A DNA stretch of 64,000 nucleotides from assembly GCA_030052745.1 (NCBI GenBank), contig JANBVO010000002.1, positions 806,001 to 870,000 of the forward strand. Reading direction: 5' to 3'. The position numbers and the translations under genes were made by a program. Positions 397 to 13,835 of the stretch are shown piece by piece. The notes below the pieces were generated by a model. That model had not been told where the DNA came from. It saw only the letters and a program-made list of their open reading frames with translations, and did not search any database. Numbering within the stretch: the first letter of the stretch is position 1; each line of letters begins with the position of its first letter. This stretch comes from Pleurostoma richardsiae. Lineage: Eukaryota > Ascomycota > Sordariomycetes > Calosphaeriales > Pleurostomataceae.

Positions 397-2241
397 TCAG
401 CACCGTATCTCCACCCCTCCCTTGCTGACAGTCAGATACTTCACCCCCTTATACGGCTTCACCCCCTCGCCCAGCCCGCGGCTCCTCCGCGGGTCCAGCA
501 CGATGCTCTCCACCTTGATCCCGCTCGGCAGCCACCCCTTGACCGCGAAGCTCACCGACGCCGAGCCCGGCATCAACATCCTGTTCTGCGCCGCCCTCCT
601 CGCGTCCCGATTCTTCGCGTCTTCCCCGGAAGCGGCATCCCCGCCCCCCTCCGCGCTGTCCAGCTTCGCCGCCGCCGGCCGCGCGACGTCCGCCTGGTAC
701 GGCTCGTCGTACAGCGCGTAGTCCTTCCTGAACCCTAGGCCGTTCGGGTCTGCGTCGCCGTCCCCGTCCTCGTCCTCGTCGTCCGGCGGCGGGCCCGCGA
801 CCGTGCACCGCAGCATGAAGAACGAGGTCCCGGACGCCAGCTCCTTCGCGGGGATGTGCCACTCCAGCCGGCGGTCACCGGGGCTGTACGTCGCGTCGCC
901 CTTCGTGGGGCGTATCTCAGGCAGGTTGCGCACCTCCGCCGGTAGCGGCACCGATACGACCACGTCCTCCAGCAGTGGCGCCGCTGGCGTGCCCGCGTGC
1001 GCGACGCCTCCCCTGCCGAGACCGCTAGATCCTCCCCCCCTTCCGAACCCACCCGCCGAAGCGGAGCTCGCGACCCCGGTCCCGAACGACCTGTTCACGT
1101 GCAGTCTGACCTCGAAGTCCGCGCCCGCCGGTCCTAGGCCTGTCTTCACCTCGATGTTCACAGGTAGACGCAGGTTGTTGCTACTGGACACGTCGAGCTT
1201 CTTCCCAGCAGCACCCCCACCGACGGCAGAGGGCAGCAAGTCGACCTCGTACCCAGCCAGGACGAACCGCCCGTCCGGCGGCACGAAGCTCAGCTCGCCG
1301 GGCCGCTCGCGCCACCTCGCGAGGCGCACGCACGGGTGGAACACCGGCAGCTCCATGACGCTGCCGAGCTCGTGCTTGCCCGCCGGGCCCGTCAGGCTGA
1401 GCAGCACGTCCGGCACCCCCGACACCTTGCTCGTGAAGGCGATGGTGCCGCTCGCCAGCGCGCTGAGCGGCCGCCCGCTCGGCGCCAGCGTCACGCTCAG
1501 CGACTCCACCACGTCCGCGTACAGCTCGTTGCTCGTGTGCCGCACGTTGGCCCGCCGCCAGGGAAGCGCCGGGCCGAGTGTCGCGCTGCTGAGGCCACCG
1601 CCGCCGCCGCCGCCGCCGCCGCCGTTTCCGAGGCTGGGCAGGCCGTGGCCGCCCCTGCCGATGCCCACTATGCCGGGGGAGGGCGAGCGGCCGAAGTCCG
1701 CGGCGGTCTTGCCGCCCGGCAGGGCGATGCCGCCGAGCAGGCGGCCCACCCAGCCCTCGACCTCGACGAGGTCGCGCAGGGCGTTGGGCTCGGTGGTGGC
1801 GACAGTCCCGGCGTCGCAGAGCTCGGTGAGAAGCTGGGCGGCCACGTCGTAGGCGGACTCGATCTTGGAGGCGAGCAGCGGCGCGCCGAGGAACTCCTCG
1901 AGGGCGTCGACGACGCGGTGCAGGAACTCGAGGGCCAGCAGGGGCTCGACCTCGGAGGAGGTGGTGAGGAGCAGCAGCAGGTTCGCGTGCTCGAGGGAGA
2001 AGACGAGGGTCGGCGGGTTGGTGTTGGGGAGGTAGATCAGGCTCGGCCGCGGCTGGGGGTGCTCGAGGTAGAGCGGGAGGAGGTGGGCGGCGGAGAGCGG
2101 CCGGGAGGTGTAGGTGTGGGAGAGGATGGGGCTGCTGGAGGACAGTGTCAGCTTCGCTTGAGACAGACCAGATCGGAGGAGGATGCGGCAGACGTACTTG
2201 CGCTCATCGTAGATGTGGATCGCTTCTATAACGCCGGTCAT
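397..2241 (-). CDS. APM3: AP-3 adaptor complex subunit mu
   Basis: Medium subunit of the AP-3 adaptor, which sorts cargo from late Golgi or endosomes to the vacuole. I infer two exons, 2241-2198 and 2134-397, giving about 593 residues. The N-terminal longin part contains the stretch LALEFLHRVVDALEEFLG, and the mu-homology domain begins near PWRRANVRHTSNELYADVVE. The C-terminus has KPYKGVKYLTVSKGG, matching the conserved AP-3 mu ending. The 63-nt segment 2197-2135 starts GTACGT, contains a GCTGAC branch site, ends CCAG and is in frame; removing it restores the family-like IYDERNSPILSHTY. The ATG at 2241 (MTGVIEAIHIYDE) is preferred over an in-frame ATG further upstream (2334) because it aligns with the family N-terminus. 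A Gly-rich linker encoded by a CCG repeat separates the two domains. Family assignment is firm; the intron is inferred. Confidence 0.9.
   Translation of the reverse strand: MTGVIEAIHIYDERKYVCRILLRSGLSQAKLTLSSSSPILSHTYTSRPLSAAHLLPLYLEHPQPRPSLIYLPNTNPPTLVFSLEHANLLLLLTTSSEVEPLLALEFLHRVVDALEEFLGAPLLASKIESAYDVAAQLLTELCDAGTVATTEPNALRDLVEVEGWVGRLLGGIALPGGKTAADFGRSPSPGIVGIGRGGHGLPSLGNGGGGGGGGGGLSSATLGPALPWRRANVRHTSNELYADVVESLSVTLAPSGRPLSALASGTIAFTSKVSGVPDVLLSLTGPAGKHELGSVMELPVFHPCVRLARWRERPGELSFVPPDGRFVLAGYEVDLLPSAVGGGAAGKKLDVSSSNNLRLPVNIEVKTGLGPAGADFEVRLHVNRSFGTGVASSASAGGFGRGGGSSGLGRGGVAHAGTPAAPLLEDVVVSVPLPAEVRNLPEIRPTKGDATYSPGDRRLEWHIPAKELASGTSFFMLRCTVAGPPPDDEDEDGDGDADPNGLGFRKDYALYDEPYQADVARPAAAKLDSAEGGGDAASGEDAKNRDARRAAQNRMLMPGSASVSFAVKGWLPSGIKVESIVLDPRRSRGLGEGVKPYKGVKYLTVSKGGVEIRC
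1595..1623. repeat. (CCG)n trinucleotide tract inside APM3
   Basis: About nine to ten uninterrupted CCG/GCC units. On the minus strand they encode a run of glycines in the linker between the longin and mu-homology domains. Length variation here would stay in frame and probably be tolerated. Confidence 0.85.
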
Positions 2242-2902: not shown

Positions 2903-5625
2903 TTACTTGCCGACCACGACGCTGGGCAGACCCAGGTGAGACCCGGTCGACGAGCTCCTGGGCATTGGCGGGCTCCTCGACGCGCCTTCCTGGTCGAACA
3001 CGCTGCTCGGCTTGCGCGAGATGGGCTTCCCGCTCGGCGTCCGCAGGCCGCTCGAGGCCGAGATGCCACTGGCCTTGTCTAGCGTCTCCTTGCACATGCG
3101 CAGGAACACGGCGCCGAGGGCCGGGTTATGCAGCGGGATGAGACTGAAGAACAGACTCGCGGTGATGCGCAGGAGCGTCTTCTTGTGGATCTGCACGCCA
3201 TAGGTCTCCTCTAGGAACTCGAAGAAGTAGCCTCGCAGCTCCTCGAGCAGATCGCGGTCCGGCTCGTCGAGTAAGGCGAGGGCGCCCTCCTTTAGGTGGT
3301 TGCCGCTGAAGAGCCTCTCGTCGTTGGTGGCGCTCATGAACAGGATGTGATCGTAGCCGCAGAGCGACTGGAGAACCTTGGCCAAGTCATAGTGGATGTC
3401 ACCTTCAGAGGTGAGTATGTTTTCCTGCCGGCACCTGACATCGATGAAGGAGACCAGCTGCTCATCGGGGGAGAGGATGGCATTGGAGAAGACCGGGTCG
3501 CCGTGGATCACCTCAGCGTACACACCCTTGTCCTCGGCCTCATACGTGTCGAGGAACTCATCCAGGCGAGAATACAGCTTCTCCGCCAATGGTCCAAGGG
3601 CATCATACCGGTCGCGGTGCGTCTCCCACCGGGAGCGGAGCTTCGCACCGTAGTTGGCGTAGATATTGACGCCCTGAGGCGACTTATCCTCCGAGTGTTC
3701 GTCAAACTTGGCAGCAAGCGCAGATGGTATCTCGAGGCTGGGCTTCTCGGTACTGCGGGTGCTGTGAATGGTGTGCAGGGACTTGAGGAAGTTCAGCATG
3801 CGACCCTTGGTGATTGAGCGGCCGACCAGAAGGTGGCTGAACGTGAGGCCACGGCGGTTCTCCATGGTGATGCTGTACGTGGCCGTGTCGGGGATGTAGT
3901 CTACGTTGAACACCTTGGGGAAGATGTGCGACAGCTCTTGCGGCATGTGCGAGTAGAAGTACAGCTCGCCCAAGATGTTCTCCGACTTAGATGACTTAAC
4001 AACCTTGCCGCCGACAATCTGAATCGTGTTGAAGTCCCGGGCCGCGATCATTCCCTCCTTCTTTGCGGAGTCATCAGCACCCGAATCGCCCAGAAGAGAC
4101 GACTCGTTCTCCTCGAGCAGCCATCCGATCTCGCGCATCGTATCGAGATTGGCGTTGACGGCTAGATCGTCGACATACACATCGGCCCATGGCTTGCCGA
4201 AGTGGATGTCGTGGAAGGGGATCTCATACTTGGCCAGCTGAGCAAACGTGACAGGGCCAATATCCGCGATGACAGACCCCACGTTGCCATCATGCGTCTT
4301 CATTCTCCGGGCGGTTTGCTTCAAACAATTTTCAGTTAGCTATCGACATAACAGGACATGCATATGCTAACACAGGGGTCGATGCCAAGGTGGGGATTGC
4401 ATGGAGTTCTGCCAATTTGAGGGCTGATGGGGAAAAGGGGGTGGCAAAGAGCGCCATCGATAATGCACTTACGATGATGATGTGATGTCCAGCCTTGAAC
4501 AGCTGCTGGACGAGCTTGATGTTCTTCTCGATGGGAGGGCAGGTCGAGTAGTCGCCCTTGACTTCGGGGTAGCCGACCAGAGTTCCGTCAAGATCGAAAC
4601 AGAAACGCCTCTTCTTCATCTTGATAGGGACCTCCCGGCTCTTGGAGTTGTTCAGTTGCCTCAGGAGGGCCTGGAGCTGCTCAGGGGTTCCGACGACCGT
4701 AAAGTCCTTCTTGTCGACGGGCATGCCCAGGAAAGGGACACCGTTTTTCATCATAAGTGCAATCATTTGTGATGTGTAGTATTCTCCGACTTCTGATCCC
4801 TCGGGGAGCGGCTTATCGAGGTTCTGCTGTGCCCATGATTTGAGCTGGCCGCCGGACGGGAAGACGTAGGCACCAGTATTGGCCTTGTTGGAAATAGCCT
4901 TCTTCTCCCGAATGTCCACGATGCGCTCCAGACCATCCCTATCCTGCGTCAGCATTGTCATGTAGACGACCAATGTCGATATTGGAGATCGCTCACTTTG
5001 GTTCTGTCTTGATGTAGGAGAAGATTGGCTTGTCCCCGTCGTCGGTGAAGTAGAAGCAGCCGCCATGGCCGTGCGGCATACGGCGCACATCCTCGAGGAC
5101 ATCGCCCCAGTAGATGGTATCGCAGTCGAGAGAGACGGTCTTGCGACCCAGGTGCTCCTTGGTCATGCTTTGGGAGACAATATAGAGCTGGAATTATGCC
5201 GCTGTCAGCAACCAAACATTTGTTTGGAAGGGAAATGACGCCTGGCGCCGAAATAATAGGGCTCTTACGGTCTCGCTGGCACCCTTGGTCTGATGGCGCA
5301 GCCTCAGGAGTCTGAAGTCGATCTTGGGGAAAGTCTTGGAGATGAGCTGGCCAATGCGGAACTCATTGTCGACCTCCTCGTTAATCGCCATCCAGAGGGT
5401 GTCGCCGTCCTTGAGGCTCAAGTTGTCGATGAGCCACAGCAGCATAGGCCGGCCAACGATATTGATCAGAGGTTTGGGGAAGCGGTAGCCCTCCTTCGCG
5501 AACCGCGAGCCGATTCCGCCGATGGGGATGATGACATTGATGGCGTTCGAGCCCGAGGGGCCAGCGCCGTTGGCTTTGCCGTTGGCTTTGCCGTGAGGCA
5601 GAACGCCGTTGTCGAGAGAGCCCAT
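2903..5625 (-). CDS. Nucleotidyltransferase-HAD phosphatase-APH kinase fusion
   Basis: Four exons (5625-5269, 5187-4997, 4938-4473, 4318-2903) give 809 residues; introns are 81, 58 and 154 nt. Residues 30-270 form an NTP-transferase: GGIGSRF at 36-42, PKP at 50-52, and metal-binding Asp140/Asp142 in LDCDT. Residues 293-410 form a HAD phosphatase with FDLDGT (Asp298, Asp300), Thr340, Lys380 and Asp388/Asp389 in KPWADVYVDD, the style of bacterial capsule-locus HAD enzymes. Residues 430-775 form an aminoglycoside/choline-kinase-like domain with HGDPVFSN at 610-617 and FIDVR (Asp631). The tail is Ser/Pro-rich. All three active sites look intact and there is no signal peptide, so I infer a cytosolic enzyme making a nucleotide-activated small molecule (sugar, polyol or amino-alcohol). 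The substrate cannot be read from sequence. It lies divergent to a transporter fusion gene. Confidence 0.85.
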
Positions 5626-8600
5626 GCTTGCGGCCCTGTCTCTTGTCTCTGGTGTTGTCGCGGGTCTGACACCAGTGTCTGAAACCGTGCAAATAGAGTA
5701 ACGTAGAGGTGACTGGGTCGGTCGTGCTCAGCGTTCGAGGTCGCCTTGACGCTGTTGGAAACGAGCGACTAACTACGGCAAGAGCAGCGGCGATGAGTTA
5801 CGGAATGTTTGACGGTGAAGAGGAAAATAAGAAGAAGTCGCGACCCGAAGTCAAGAAAGGAGGTCCTCGTCTGCTTCTTCTTCTTCTGCCAGAAAGGGGT
5901 CCCGCGGCAGAGGCCAGGCAGTACGGCAGTACAAGAAGGGGTCGCGATGCGTTAACAAAAAAAGGTTCCTAACGTTAAATAACTCTAGCTTCCTTTGTCA
6001 GGCTGCAGGTTCCACAGGGGTTTCAGCCTTAACACCACCCAAGTGGGAAGGAAGAGACCAGTGAGCGAAGGCCAATTGTTAGCAGAAAAAAAAAGGTGAA
6101 ATTGCACTTGCGGCGCGGATGGCTGCCCCCCTATTTAGCAGGCGCGCTAAATGAACGGCTCCCCCTGGCACAAGTACTCGCAAGTACCTCTTTTTGCCTC
6201 ACTGTCTCAACCGAGGTCAACAGGCACAACAGCATTCTGTGCTTTGTGCTCTAGAGTATAACACGCCGAGTTACGGTTCGCGTTGATTGCTTCAGATGTC
6301 GCGAGATGATGCGCCCTCCGTGCGACGCTGCTATCACCGGCTTATCGATGGATCCCTCCCACCCGCTTCCCTCAGCCTATCAAGACCGCCAATCGTTTCC
6401 TCCAGCGGCCCGCAAGACCGTAGCCCAGCACTGCAGCACTGCCTCCCTCCCGCCAAGAGCCCCAGCTGTCAAACCCAGCGAGCCACAGAAACCCTTGCGA
6501 TGAGGAACGTGCAGTGACCACCGCCAAATCAGACGCAATACGCTAAGACACCGGCCAGACCCGAGGAATCCCAGCAGCAATTTCTCAAGAAGTCGAGACC
6601 GTGGATCTGCTGTGGATCAGTTCGGGCGAGCCGCTACAGAAGGACCAGGGCGCTGCGGAGGCAATAGCTGTCAAGATAAACCCACAGGAAGCCCACTCAG
6701 ACGCCTCTCCACCGACAAAGCCGTCGGAACGCTGATGTCTTGCGGAGAAGATGATGTATTGTCGGGGAGCCCTTGTCTGACTTGAACAGAAAGAACTCGC
6801 CGCTCCAATGGTGCACAGGCTTGGCCCAGGAAGCTTCGGTCGCATCGCAACGAGACAAGCGTCCTCCTTTTGGGAGCCGCATGTGGTAACTTAATCTGCA
6901 CAGGGGGTTCTCGTATAGCGCCACGATCCACTGAGACAGGGGCCGGCTGTGAGCAAACTGGCAAACAAGCATCAAGACCCGCGTACTACTCTAGTAGTCT
7001 CATCTCTAATTTTCCATGGGCTTGACAGCCCAACAGACCAGGACTCAAATGGGGTCTCTTTCTTAATACCACCATCACCCCTGAAAAAAAAGCACTCGCT
7101 ATCTCACAGGTTGACGACCAAGCTACCTAACTAGGTAATGGCCGCGAACGTGCGATTCTCCTTGTCGAAGAGAAGAGGACTCCGTATGTTTGGCAGTATC
7201 AATACTGTCCGACTCTCAACTCTCCTATGGAGCATTTAGTAATGTGTCGAGTTGCGTCAGAGCTGTGGTCCAAGCACTCTTCAGCCTGTCTGCGGCCACT
7301 GGGAAGCCGCCTTCTGGTCTCGGCAGACAGCGGCCGGCTGCATGCAGCACTGTAATACGAGATGCCGGTAGACAGGTTTTCAAACTGTTACCGACCAGCC
7401 AATGGCGAAACGTCCTGGATTGCGAGGCAAGCAGGATGATCTCCCCCCGAAAGAGCAAAGCCCCCCCCTTCCTTAACAGCGACGAGACGGTATGCTGCCA
7501 TACAACACACGCATCCTGCTACAGCCAAGACCGCTGGACTGGCTGTTTGCAGCTGTGCCACCAGTAATTACACAGTATTATGTGTGTTTGATTAACTCCC
7601 CGCCCCTCCCAGCGGCCGCCCCTGCTCGGGCAGCTCGGATGCTGGTTACAACTTCATTGTCTTTCTGGTCAGGCTGTGCGCTGGCATGCGGTGATCGTCT
7701 CTCACCCTCTTCCTGTAGGTCTTACGTCAACTCTGCCTATGAAACGGCTTGACACGTACCTATGCACGGGGCTAGTAGCGGTAAAGTACCTATGCTTTTA
7801 AATATGCTTCGAGATATGCTTCAGGATACCTCCTCTTGCTACTGAATTCCCCCGCAAGTATCTCGGGACAATCGGCATGGACCCGGGGTCCTTCTTTTTT
7901 CTCCTCTGGCGATGGCCAGTGGACGAGACACCTGTTAGCACAGGAGCAAATCACATCATGTACGCGTCAATCCACTTTAGGTAGCGAATAAATGAGAGAT
8001 ACCTGAGGGTACTTGCATCCTGCAGGCTCTCTAGTGTAGGGGCGGTCTCGAATTTGTCCGCGATTATGGTACAAGCGGCTCCTCATCCGTTAATTAGCGT
8101 CAGAGCTACGGGAAGTGCATCTGGTAATTTTCCTTCTTCCCCCTTATCGATATCACCGACTTCTCACTGGCTGCCTGTCTCCTTTCCCCTGTTCCTGTTC
8201 CTTTTCAGTCGAGGTGAGGTGCTGGTAGCTTCACACGCCGCTGTTAGTGTCGCCTGCGGGACGCCCTGTACCCCTTTAACATTACCGACTAAATGCCGGA
8301 ATAGGAACGCCACCACCTGTGAACTGGACTGAACGCGTCGCAACTCGCTCCTCAGCCCTTTCTCGGCTTCCCACCTCCTCCTCCAGTTACAGCCAGCGAC
8401 GTCAGTCAGATTCCCCTCCAGCTGCTGACTGCGCCTCCGCCTCCTCCTCCTCTTCCTCCATCTCCACCTCGACGTCGAAGCATCGCCTTCAGCGTATCCT
8501 GGCACGCTCGTTAGAGGAGACAGCAAGCGCGGCGCAACCCTTCAATTCGATTCTTCTTCCTTCCTTCTCCGTCGGACCGCCTTTCTGCCTCTCGATGCCC

Positions 8601-8641
8601 TCACGGGTCCTATAATCATTATAATCACAGAGCCGACCACA
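5626..8641. other. 3 kb divergent intergenic region
   Basis: It separates the start codons of the two divergently transcribed fusion genes. Reading frames here reach at most about 125 codons, overlap on several strands and show no domain. The 3' 350 bases are CT-rich (TCCTCC and TTCCTT runs at about 8340-8620), typical of a fungal promoter or 5' leader for the gene starting at 8642. It could hide a small unrecognised gene or a noncoding RNA. Confidence 0.5.
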
Positions 8642-11089
8642 ATGTTTCGACGAATACCACTTTCCGTTCCTTCGCTTCCTCTTCCTTCCTCGCAGCCTCT
8701 TCAGGTTGGCGTACAACGGGTTCTCGGGTCAAGACACTTCTCATGGATCACCAGCGGCCCCCACAAAGCCGCCTATATGGCGGCGCTCGGCCTGGTCGCC
8801 ATCCAGGTTGGCATCGGCATCATTATGAAGGCCTCCCAGACCGGCGGAACCTATTCCTTTTCGCCCTCCGCCTCCGTCACCATCTCCGAGTTCCTGAAGA
8901 TGCTGCTTTCGACGGCTTTCTTCTACCGCGAATGCCGCCAGAGAGCCGCCGACGGCATCGCACCCTCCACACGCGGCGGAGGGTCGGGCTATAGCTCTGT
9001 GGCGACATCAGATCTGCCGACCACAGAAAGGAGTAGCTTGGACGAAAAGGAGGCAGCGGATGGTGTTGAGTCAACCATGGCCGCAACCCCTGCGCCCCAT
9101 ACTGGACCTCTACCGCATCTCGATGTGCGGACGTACTGGAGCTACATCCGAGGAGAGGTTACAAGCCCTGTTCGCTACGGCTTTTGCAACTTGGCCCTAT
9201 TCTACGTTCTTATCAATAACTCGGTATGTAGAACGTTTTGAACGTCCGCTGGAGGGCTCGACGCTGATCTTGAGGAACAGATTTTCGTCGCGTACAAGTT
9301 GGCGGACCCAGGAACGATCAACCTGATCAAGAGCGGTGTTACTTTCATCACTGCACTCGTCATGATCGCTACACTGGGCACCAAGGTCTCCAAGAACCAG
9401 TGGATCGCAATTGTCATCCAAGTGAGCAGCGTTCGCCATTTACTCTGACGGTGCTCAAGCTGACTGATCCTTAGGTCTGTGGTTTGCTTGTGACGCAGTA
9501 CAACCCTGAGACAGGTTCTACCTACTCGTTCGGTACCTACCTCGTCCTCATCTTCCAGGTCTTCCTTAGCGCATCCTCCGGCGTCTACAACCAAGCCCTG
9601 CTCAAGACAGATGATTCGAGCCTGCATGCTGACAACATGATCCTCTACGCCGCTGGGTCGGTGGTGAACCTCATGGTCCATATCATGCTCAGCGTGTTCA
9701 AGGAAGATGAGCCCAGTTTCTTTGAGGGCTACAATAGCTTTGGCGCGATGATGGTCATTGTGAGTAATGTCTTCATCGGCCTTGCCATCACCGCGGTCTA
9801 CAGATGTAAGTTGTGAAAACTTCCCATAGATGGTTCTCTGCCCTAGCTAACCGAGCGCAGATGCCGATGCCGTCATCAAGTGTTTCGCTACCGCTTTTGC
9901 GACCGGTATCTTGCTGTATATCTCACCCATACTTTTCGGCACAAAACTTAGCTTCCTTGTCCTCCCCGGAACTATTGTCGTCTTTGTTGCGTCTTACATG
10001 TACATGGACAACCCGCCACCGCGCGACCCGAATCCGCAGCCCGCGAAAACCGAGACCAAGAATTCTTGGCAGGTACTGCAGAAGTACGGCAGAAGCGTGC
10101 TCATCGGCTCGACTATCTTCACCGTCTTTGTCGCCACGTTCTTGACGATGTTTGCGTCTAGCCTCGGTGACGTCAGCCAGGATGTCAAACCTGCACCGAA
10201 GAAGCCTCTGCCTGTGGATAGCAAGATCTCTTCGCCGTTCAAGAACACGTTGGCCATGGTGCGCTGGAACTCTAAGCACGCCGAACGAATCCCGATGATC
10301 GAGAAATATACGCCGTTCTTCCATACTATGCACATCTCGATGCCAGAGTACCTCCCTGGCCAGGCCAATGCCTTCCACAATCTCACCGTGGACCAATACG
10401 GTGAAGCCTTCACTGTTTATGTTCAGGTGGCCCGCACCATGAAGCTCATCCTTGAGACGGAACCAGACATTGAGGGGCTCTTTTACTACCATTTCGATGC
10501 TTGGGTCGATCCTCTGCAGTGGGCGTCAGCGAACTACGAAAACATCTGGTACCCATCCGTTGCCGATGCCGCCGCCGGAGCTTTCGGCGGCCCGCAGTTT
10601 GTCTGCATGAACAACTCGGCGACGTACAACTGGTGGGGGTGGGAGAAGAACTACCACCACGACGCCCTCGCGGCCATCGAGTCGATCCCGTCTGACCGCT
10701 TTTCGGTGCCGTTCCGCCGCGACCAGTGGTGTCTGGGCTGGAGCGACATCTATTACGTCCCACGCCGCTTCTTCGATGACTTCATCGCCCTTGCCGAGAT
10801 CTTCGCCTCCTTCAGCGTCATGCATGAGGTCGCCATCCCGACGATCCTGCACATCATCGACGTGGCGCGGCGCCCGCACGCGCTGCAGCCCGTGCTGGAC
10901 CGCTTCGGCGACTGCTGGGGCAGCTGCTGCGCCAGCGATCCCGGCATCGACGTCGTGCTGTGGGCGCGGTGTGGCCACAGGCTCAACTACAGGGACGAGA
11001 AGGTCACTGCCGCGTTCTACGACAAGCTGGACGGGGAGGCAGCGATGCTCGGCACGGTAGGGAAGATGCAGGACTTTTACAGGATCTGA
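8642..11089 (+). CDS. Nucleotide-sugar transporter fused to a C-terminal lumenal enzyme-like domain
   Basis: Four exons (8642-9223, 9281-9421, 9475-9805, 9861-11089) give 760 residues; introns are 57, 53 and 55 nt. Residues 40-400 match the SLC35A-type transporter family (UDP-galactose/UDP-GlcNAc/CMP-sialate carriers): many hydrophobic segments, NLALFYVLINNS, a KSGVTFITAL segment and SSGVYNQALLK. A typical carrier ends near residue 400. Here an extra hydrophobic segment (about 429-450) follows, then about 300 mostly soluble residues with HFDAWVDP (562-569, DxxxD-like), many Trp, and a Cys cluster GDCWGSCC. If both ends of the carrier face the cytosol, the additional segment places this domain in the Golgi lumen. 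The C-terminal domain resembles membrane-tethered glycosyltransferases in layout, but I cannot name its family. The transporter call is firm; the enzyme call is inference. Confidence 0.85.
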
Positions 11090-11866: not shown

Positions 11867-13835
11867 TCAATTCACAATATCCACAAACCTCTGCGGCGCC
11901 AGCACCCGCTGCTCCTCCCCCGCGTCCAGCCTCGCCGGCACGTCGCTCGCCCAGCTGCTCTTGAGTATGTACGCCTTGACGTCGAACTGCGCCCCGCCGC
12001 CCTTGCCCGCCGCGCCCGCGTCCACCGTCCCCGTCAGCTGGTCCATGTCCCCCTGCGCGAAGTACAGCAGCGTGCCGGCCGCGGCCCCGCCGCCCGCGTA
12101 CACCTCCAGTATCGACCTGTCGAGGATGCCCCGCACCGCGAAGGCTGCCTCGCGAGTGCCGTCGCTCCCCGCGGTGACGGACGCCGGCTCGAGGGCGAGC
12201 GAGGTCCAGACGTCGACGTGGGCCGCCTGCGTCCAGTTCGGCACGTTGCGGCGGAGCGTCACGGTGCCGGTGATGTTGCCCTTGGCGGACGACGAGGACG
12301 ACCCGGACGACAGAGAGGGGTACGTGACGTTGAGCACGACGGAGACGCTCTCGCCCGTCTCGCCGCTCTCGAAGACCAGGCTGGCGGTCGCGGAGCCGCC
12401 GGGGGCCAGGTCGGCGCGTACGGTCCAGGCGAACTCGAGCGGCGGGTTGTCAGCGTAGACGGCGTTGAGGCCGGTGACGTCCGCCTCGTCGACGATGGTC
12501 CCCTGCCGGATGGGCGTGGTGTCGGCGGGCCGCGAGATGAGCCGGTACGATTCGTCGAGCCAGTGCTCGCGCGCGACGGTCATGCAGTGGCGCCAGCCCT
12601 CGCTGCTCGTGGGGGTGCCACCTGCGTACGCGGTCGAGGTGGCCCAGCTGATGGACAGGACGTTGTCGTCGGGCCCGGCGCCGGGCTCGTACCAGAAGGC
12701 AGTGGCATACGTGTCCGGGCCGAAGTCGTAGTCCTGCAGCCAGTAATTGGTTCCCGTGACTGGCGCTCCGGGCACCACAATTGGCGTGAAGGTCTCGCCG
12801 TCGAAACGACCTGGCATGTAGCGCACGGCGGAGCCGCCCGGGCCGGAAGACCGGCCGTTGCCGATAGAGATGAGCAGGAGGTAGACGGTATCAATGACAG
12901 CTCCGTCGGCGCGGCGGCGCGGGATGGTCAAGAGCTGGGGGCATTCGATGAAGCCAGCGGCCGGGTCAGGCGTCCATTGAGAGGTCTGCGTCCAGTTGCG
13001 CAGATCGGAGGACGCCCAGAAGGCGACGGCATTCTCAAATGTGGTGGCCATGATCCACTTCTGGGTGAAGGGGTGGAAAATGACTTTGGGATCCCGGAAT
13101 CCGTGTCGGTTGAGGGATATGATTGGGTTCGCCGGATCCTCGTTGAAGGTCTCACCGCCATCGTACGAGTAGGCCACCGACTGAGCTTCTTGCGCCGATG
13201 TCCAGGAGGTGAAGAATGCCAGCACATTGTCCACGCCTGCCTTGGTCGCGTTGGCCGGGAAGAAGCCCGAGATATTGTCCTTGTCTATGATGGCGCTGCC
13301 GGACCAGATGGAGCCCGTCGCGTCTGTCTGCTGGATGGCTACAGGCTGGTCCTGCCAGTCATAGAGGTTCGTGGAGGTTGTGTGACCCCAGTCCTTGTTC
13401 ACACCGTTCCCGTCAACGGTTTCGCCATCTGCACATGTTCTGTTAGCGATCTGTGTTTATCTGCGCCGCACCTGCCAGTTTGTGCACCGTAAGAGTTCGC
13501 CCGAGCCGGGAAGGGCTGAGACAACCAATTCGGAGTCAGAAGCGCAGTGTCTGGCAGCGCGCCTTGTCCCACCGAGTCCATAGCCGCAAGGGCCATTCAT
13601 AGCGGACGGCAAACTCACACTGGTAGTACATATGCCAGACCCCCTTAGTGTCTCTGAACAAGCCATTTGGGTCGTTTGTCCAGTTCTCCAGCGGGGAGAA
13701 GTGCACTTGGGGTCGCCAATGCCCAGACCTGCTGGGCGTCTGTCTCTTGCTCGCTGGCATGGCTGCTGCGGGTTCTACGAAGACCCCCAAGCCGCCTAAC
13801 AGCACCGGAACGAAGGGTAAGAGCAAGTCCCACAT
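11867..13835 (-). CDS. Secreted GH32 invertase (beta-fructofuranosidase)
   Basis: A glycoside hydrolase family 32 enzyme expected to hydrolyse sucrose or other fructosides outside the cell. Two exons, 13835-13619 and 13428-11867, joined across a 190-nt intron (GTGAGT to TGCAG), give 592 residues. Splicing restores MYYQY followed by [18 protein letters not shown], the normal GH32 course. The signature WTNDPNGLF carries the nucleophile Asp55; FRDPKV (Asp185) and FIECPQL (acid/base Glu234) are present. The N-terminus [19 protein letters not shown] looks like a signal peptide; an in-frame ATG 19 codons upstream (13892) is an alternative start. The C-terminal beta-sandwich is present and includes a Ser-rich loop. 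Exo-inulinase or fructosyltransferase activity cannot be excluded. Confidence 0.92.

Follow-up and report, generated by a model that had tools for sequence, protein, structure and literature searches.

The GDP-D-glycero-D-manno-heptose pathway, with the kinase HddA, the HAD phosphatase GmhB and the nucleotidyltransferase HddC, is the described system closest to the genes treated here. In that pathway, the heptose-1-kinase is of the GHMP type. A kinase and a nucleotidyltransferase also provide the logic of LicA/LicC in the LicA/LicC/LicD phosphocholine system, while SLC35A transporters move conjugates such as CMP-sialic acid and UDP-galactose. The window analysed here, a whole stretch of 64,000 nucleotides from the ascomycete Pleurostoma richardsiae (Sordariomycetes, Calosphaeriales; host assembly of 39.4 Mb), holds two divergent genes with related domains. 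Gene A encodes a predicted cytosolic enzyme with nucleotidyltransferase, HAD phosphatase and APH-type kinase domains, and gene B a transporter of the SLC35A type fused to a domain with a predicted GT-A fold. The general role of each protein is very probably as these domains suggest, and the two probably share a pathway.

Gene structures and domain content of the pair

Genes A and B form a real and intact divergent pair that ends exactly at positions 2903 and 11089 of the window, as the earlier note on this DNA had claimed (Table 1). Each of the six introns is bounded by GT and AG, and both reading frames are open. The product of A is the deposited P. richardsiae protein P0001 (100% identity over 809 aa). 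No protein identical to full-length B was present among the relatives listed in the protein search; its splice model was built in this analysis and is supported by relatives aligning over B and by the deposited fragment P0205, which is 99% identical to its C-terminal part. The genome search found one place each for A and for B in P. richardsiae.

The active sites of the three domains predicted in A are near-invariant among 101 sequences, a set formed by 60 database sequences (eukaryotic where named), 39 viral ones and 2 bacterial ones. The Nucleotidyl transferase profile PF00483 matches residues 32-241 with 27.7 bits (cut-off 21.2), and the residues of this site (G37, G39, R41, K51, D140, D142, E194, and K195) are kept in 96-101 of the 101 sequences. 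The second domain matches TIGR01689, the EcbF/BcbF-type HAD profile, at residues 293-394 with 59.5 bits, and as the cut-off is 162 it reads as a relative of EcbF/BcbF, not as a member; it also matches 1xpj (E 3.7e-13). The catalytic motifs of HAD enzymes are DxDxT, T/S, K, and DD, and the corresponding residues D298, D300, T302, T340, K380, D388, and D389 are found in 99-101 of the 101 sequences (100-101 for D298, D300, T340, K380, and D388 alone). The putative kinase site, with the HxDxxxxN motif and D631, is retained in 100-101 sequences (K446, E456, H610, D612, N617, and D631), and some relatives of A carry PF01636 (APH) in precomputed domain annotation. Neither the GHMP nor the choline-kinase family matched A in the Pfam scan at E up to 1. 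In the fold search with A, the matches were filled by the first domain, which hits two entries titled 'Putative 6-deoxy-D-mannoheptose pathway protein'. The automatic names of A relatives include 'capsule biosynthesis phosphatase' and 'mannose-1-phosphate guanyltransferase'.

The transporter part of B scores above the cut-offs of both PF04142 (residues 185-399, 91.2 bits versus 27) and TIGR00803 (63.7 versus 55.85 bits), and no named domain exceeds its cut-off beyond the PF04142 region. The C-terminal domain is predicted to adopt a GT-A fold, with a structural match over most of its length. LicD matched neither full B (E up to 1) nor its C-terminal part (E up to 10). In relatives down to 37% identity, H509, S511, H562, D564, W566, D647, H673, E674, and six near-invariant Cys are conserved in every or almost every ungapped row of the alignment, which contains no classical DxD motif and only a conserved HFDxWxD; the Asn of a glycosylation site is conserved in 56 of 63 relatives. 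Forms in which the transferase domain follows a single hydrophobic segment, with no transporter, appear to exist, and P0232 from Rhizodiscina is a form that lacks the transporter.

Several further observations touch on B. Many source names label its relatives as UDP-galactose transporters. Colletotrichum holds two kinds of B (among P0122-P0135 and P0157-P0180), one of ~900 aa with 52-54% identity to the C-terminal part encoded in the window and the other of ~750-835 aa with 37-48%. A distant metagenomic relative of the transferase domain (P0240, 382 aa, 27% identity), also with no transporter, hints that this family may not be confined to fungi. The epimerase-like part of P0184, next to B, scored far below the curated NCBIfam cut-offs and was not used.

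The profile matches and the GT-A fold model thus bear out the domain reading given in the earlier note. That note had also spoken of two independent fusions: each gene does encode one, but the fusion of A recurs in viral contigs and two bacteria, and that of B was found, where the source is named, only in Pezizomycotina.

Table 1. Coordinates of the gene pair, its predicted domains, flanking genes and loci of a neighbouring family (positions refer to the window unless a locus is named)
Feature	Position	Strand	Basis or details
Gene A, 809 aa	2903-5625	-	4 exons: 5625-5269, 5187-4997, 4938-4473, 4318-2903; spliced model open, GT-AG introns
A, nucleotidyltransferase domain, ~residues 26-285	4632-5550	-	introns inside
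A, HAD phosphatase domain, ~residues 291-411	4100-4616	-	one intron inside; TIGR01689, 1xpj
A, APH-type kinase domain, ~residues 432-760	3053-4039	-	weak PF01636, conserved residues
Gene B, 760 aa	8642-11089	+	4 exons: 8642-9223, 9281-9421, 9475-9805, 9861-11089; spliced model open, GT-AG introns
B, SLC35A-type nucleotide-sugar transporter, residues 44-393	8771-9985	+	ten hydrophobic segments, introns inside; PF04142, TIGR00803, hydropathy
B, eleventh hydrophobic segment, residues 431-449	10097-10153	+	hydropathy 2.11; helix 68-100 of structure model
B, C-terminal GT-A-fold domain, residues 473-760	10223-11086	+	predicted model
Intergenic region between divergent starts of A and B, 3.0 kb	5626-8641	.	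gene-model coordinates
Adaptor-complex medium subunit gene (PF00928), beyond A	397-2238	-	domain match
GH32 (invertase/inulinase-type glycosidase) gene, beyond B	11867-13456	-	domain match
MKIALCLSGQxR-family loci	L092:7208-8020; L071:7275-7997; L038:8482-9630; L040:9522-11933; and others		

Neither of the flanking genes is an obvious partner of A or B, the two open reading frames (ORFs) in the gap between the pair have no Pfam match, and in the window neither flank of the pair showed an isomerase gene.

Linkage of A and B and the range of A

Linkage was assessed with the best 120 of 917 A relatives, 91 of which were set against 83 B rows; the remaining one of the 84, P0173, has no contig. A contig was taken as shared when the longest contigs of the A cluster and the B cluster agreed in length, and long contigs show linkage at most. 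The protein search requires shared 5-residue words, and the absences reported here are accordingly soft.

Relatives of both genes occurred on 21 contigs in this comparison, and setting the A rows on contigs of at least 10 kb against 36 further B-domain rows added 4 more (one with P0232), giving at least 25 contigs in total, 9 of them no longer than 200 kb. Among the 31 listed A rows on contigs of 10-200 kb, 9 share the contig with B, while random placement of B in a genome of this size would give 0.06; as the relatives are not independent, the Poisson value for this excess overstates the case. A and B carry consecutive locus tags in Verticillium albo-atrum, Chlorociboria, and a Mollisiaceae, and tags ten apart in Anthostomella. 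Linked pairs are present in Sordariomycetes, Dothideomycetes (Tothia and Rhizodiscina), and Leotiomycetes (Chlorociboria), and one Xylogone source has the two genes paired on each of two contigs, of 8.2 and 9.1 Mb. Because linkage has been kept in three classes of Pezizomycotina, A and B are well supported as a functional unit, the make-import-transfer module proposed in the earlier note. That note had suggested conserved adjacency as a check, and linkage is conserved.

Other figures weigh against this reading. The length of most shared contigs precludes a proof of adjacency, the two tags differ by seven in Ophiocordyceps camponoti-saundersi, and in Sphaceloma the two genes lie on separate listed contigs. 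By named rows (the best 120 of 917 for A), 19 genera hold both genes, 23 have A alone, and 6 have B alone, these 6 being among the 25 genera with B. The Fusarium clusters contain 80 A members (66+12+1+1) and 2 B members (1+1), and among the matches listed none of the basidiomycetes, chytrids, aphelids, or Capsaspora with A shows a B. The strict co-occurrence of the two genes that the earlier note looked for is thus not observed, and its module stands as a linked unit in which A is spread far more widely than B. It seems from this distribution that B depends on A, and not the reverse; since many taxa bear A with no listed B, the product of A must have other users and would feed other transferases elsewhere.

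Such a distribution could also be expected if A and B belonged to separate pathways and were linked otherwise, by a shared divergent promoter or by slow rearrangement, with B carrying a common UDP-sugar. The 3.0 kb that separate the genes and the source names of B would be in line with this explanation. However, the linkage in three classes, the two Xylogone contigs, the excess over chance on contigs of 10-200 kb, and the sequential nature of the predicted steps all speak against it, and we regard it as unlikely.

The three-domain kinase-phosphatase-nucleotidyltransferase is common to eukaryotes, viruses, and a few bacteria. Gene A ranges over chytrids, aphelids, basidiomycetes, nearly all listed Fusarium and Capsaspora, and it also occurs on viral contigs and in two bacteria. 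Among prokaryotes, the genome scan turned up all three domains fused on two alphaproteobacterial contigs, the best segment (residues 29-752) being 31% identical, and a HAD-APH fragment in an archaeal metagenome-assembled genome. One of the bacterial proteins (L005) matched only itself at 1e-30 in 162 genomes of its order, so the fused form is accessory there, and nothing was confirmed when it was used as a query against the viral contigs. Viral contigs yielded 103 A relatives, of which 80 were kept; the 54 best loci (L048-L101) gave 52 ORFs with all three domains, or 39 after the removal of near-copies. The viral contigs with the fused gene reach 434 kb, often with sugar genes nearby. A quick tree places the 60 database sequences in one group (SH-aLRT 100) within which the named Pezizomycotina are one clade, with basidiomycetes, chytrids, and aphelids outside it. 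Given this grouping, A in eukaryotes appears to be ancient and passed on mostly by vertical descent.

Two gene models related to A appear to be merged with a neighbour, P0022 from Fusarium denticulatum with a PF11951 protein and P0083 from Parascedosporium with a GH3-type enzyme. Both are likely annotation errors, and they also reveal other neighbours of A.

Predicted pathway and the nature of the product

According to the proposed mechanism, A would act in the cytosol and produce a nucleotide-activated sugar, starting from a small sugar or from a sugar phosphate. The APH-type domain would phosphorylate the sugar, with the anomeric carbon as the most likely site, the HAD domain would take off the other phosphate, and the N-terminal domain would join the resulting sugar-1-phosphate to a nucleoside triphosphate, an order borrowed by analogy from GDP-heptose synthesis. 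The SLC35A part of B would then carry the nucleoside di- or monophosphate sugar across the Golgi membrane in exchange for a nucleotide monophosphate. The GT-A domain, kept in the lumen by the eleventh transmembrane segment, would pass the sugar, where it leaves the transporter, to a glycan that is secreted or belongs to the cell wall. We infer that the group is a sugar and not another group, and, in the same conditional sense, its identity and that of the nucleotide, the acceptor, a surface role, the Golgi location, the lumenal topology of B, and a direct hand-over. On balance, we lean towards this whole chain from activation to import and transfer.

Some features of the two proteins count against the chain. 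In A, PF01636 matches residues 548-658 with 12.8 bits, below the cut-off of 23.2. The GT-A assignment of B is made on predicted fold, the best Foldseek match in the PDB having an E of 2.9e-3 with none at 1e-3, and no glycosyltransferase family appears for its C-terminal domain among the 25 of 48 Pfam families listed. An alignment of the close relative P0121 (66% identical to B in the C-terminal part) with 6oh4, a CMP-sialic acid transporter, shows that the lysine following the YxD motif is kept and that the other lysine stands three positions earlier, with none opposite K124, which binds the nucleotide in animal CMP-sialate transporters. For this reason, the cargo of B may differ, and an unusual cargo is compatible with the alignment.

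The neighbours of A relatives bear on the nature of the product. Among 77 immediate neighbours in 39 viral loci, the commonest belong to GT2 (7), GT61 (7), DUF7796 (6), and TAGT (4), and many fall in none of the families. A putative transferase-like family, whose members start with MKIALCLSGQxR and in a few cases match DUF7796, is found at most 5 kb from the three-domain gene in 15 of the 39 loci and at most 60 bp from it in 12. Of the 398 genomes sampled in Pseudomonadota, 119 gave some match, many being short nucleotidyltransferase hits. Fourteen bacterial regions were chosen for better or double matches, and ten of them (L034-L042 and L044) hold consecutive genes for a HAD protein (~126 aa), an APH protein (~530 aa), and a nucleotidyltransferase (~244 aa). 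The MKIALCLSGQxR family accompanies the cassette in 5 of the 14 regions: it adjoins it in three (L037, L038, and L041), lies 3.8 kb off in L039, and in L040 is fused to the nucleotidyltransferase (residues 503-798). WavE genes stand beside the cassette in L035. By its position, the MKIALCLSGQxR family may be a candidate cognate glycosyltransferase in viruses and bacteria, though for this family and for WavE that activity is unproven and putative here. It shows no sequence relation to the domain of B (hhalign probability 0.1-0.2%), which also tells against the proposed chain. None of the 18 pattern-matching stretches in viral contigs was confirmed as a B-type transferase domain, and a search through the 965 ORFs from the viral loci found none at E up to 10.

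The neighbours also vary. A LicD-type ORF, again at odds with the chain, lies 4 kb from the three-domain gene on L006, while the bacterial fused gene on L005 has beside it ORFs resembling CDP-glucose 4,6-dehydratase and RfbH (L005:696-3662, below curated cut-offs) and a further one that reads like a sugar nucleotidyltransferase. Nevertheless, since viral and bacterial relatives of A often adjoin transferase genes, gene context points to a glycosyl donor more than to a donor of choline- or polyol-phosphate.

Under the latter alternative, A would make a nucleotide-linked donor of a phospho-group (CDP-choline, CDP-ethanolamine, or a CDP-polyol) and the lumenal domain of B would hand that group to a glycan. 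The kinase and nucleotidyltransferase of A do resemble the LicA/LicC logic, the ORF on L006 would fit, and two viral neighbours of the three-domain gene match RXYLT1_C, human RXYLT1 being an enzyme that acts on ribitol-phosphate chains. Against this, the domain of B has the fold of true glycosyltransferases and no LicD match, glycosyltransferases are the commonest viral neighbours, with LicD absent among the 25 of 41 families listed, no choline-kinase family matches A at E up to 1, and, to our knowledge, LicABC offers no place for a HAD step. We therefore consider this alternative distinctly improbable. It is very improbable that B is a transporter with a non-catalytic C-terminal domain (a stem, a retention part, or a lectin), which the missing DxD would suit, as the residues listed above persist down to 37% identity and transporter-less forms appear to exist.

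Two observations from Campylobacter touch on the cassettes and on A. A table of one study gives CJSA_1353-1355 (240, 507, and 132 aa) as 'Unknown' (PMC7901785); these have the same sizes as the bacterial cassette proteins, and the likeness is by size alone. Fructose, considered as the sugar of A in view of work on Campylobacter HS1 (PMC7901785, PMC11924219), was dropped, there being no comparison of the fructose gene HS1.08 to A.

Returning to the chain of activation, import, and transfer, it is possible, and put forward here only tentatively, that it represents a new eukaryotic nucleotide sugar made by one protein and, in moulds, imported and transferred by a second, that is, an import-coupled glycosylation. 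The parts are of known kinds; no description of the A fusion, the B fusion, or their linkage was found in open-licence literature, so that the three-in-one enzyme, the transporter-transferase fusion, and the conserved linkage are apparently undescribed, although this is weak evidence of novelty. If the chain is true, many moulds have a branch of glycosylation outside the known fungal nucleotide sugars, resting on two genes that are single-copy in P. richardsiae and individually deletable, and the fusion of transporter and enzyme lets substrate hand-over in the Golgi be examined in one protein. Once identified, the product of A would give a function to a large family that extends from Capsaspora and chytrids to viral contigs under automatic names.

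Comparison with known systems

The closest working analogy to A is the GDP-heptose pathway, which leads from a sugar phosphate to an NDP-sugar by the same three activities. A falls outside that family, as its kinase is APH-like with no GHMP match, its HAD domain is EcbF/BcbF-like, and all three activities are held in one protein. The bacterial cassettes share the three domains by profile and have transferase genes alongside in several cases; in contrast to A, they consist of separate genes, mostly in polysaccharide-type surroundings and with no B-type transporter, and their ~530-aa APH protein holds an extra N-terminal part that does not match the nucleotidyltransferase profile. The phosphocholine system LicA/LicC/LicD has in common with A and B the logic of kinase, nucleotidyltransferase, and transferase, but A adds a HAD phosphatase, and B presents a predicted GT-A fold instead of LicD.

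With respect to transport and transfer, B resembles the SLC35A transporters of CMP-sialic acid and UDP-galactose in its ten hydrophobic segments and profile matches, and differs from them in a long loop after the second segment, an eleventh segment, and an enzyme-like domain of 290 aa. Compared with Golgi enzymes of the GT-A type, such as C2GnT (GT14), those of GT31, and AfGfsA, the domain of B matches no family among those listed, and it is fused to the very transporter that would supply it.

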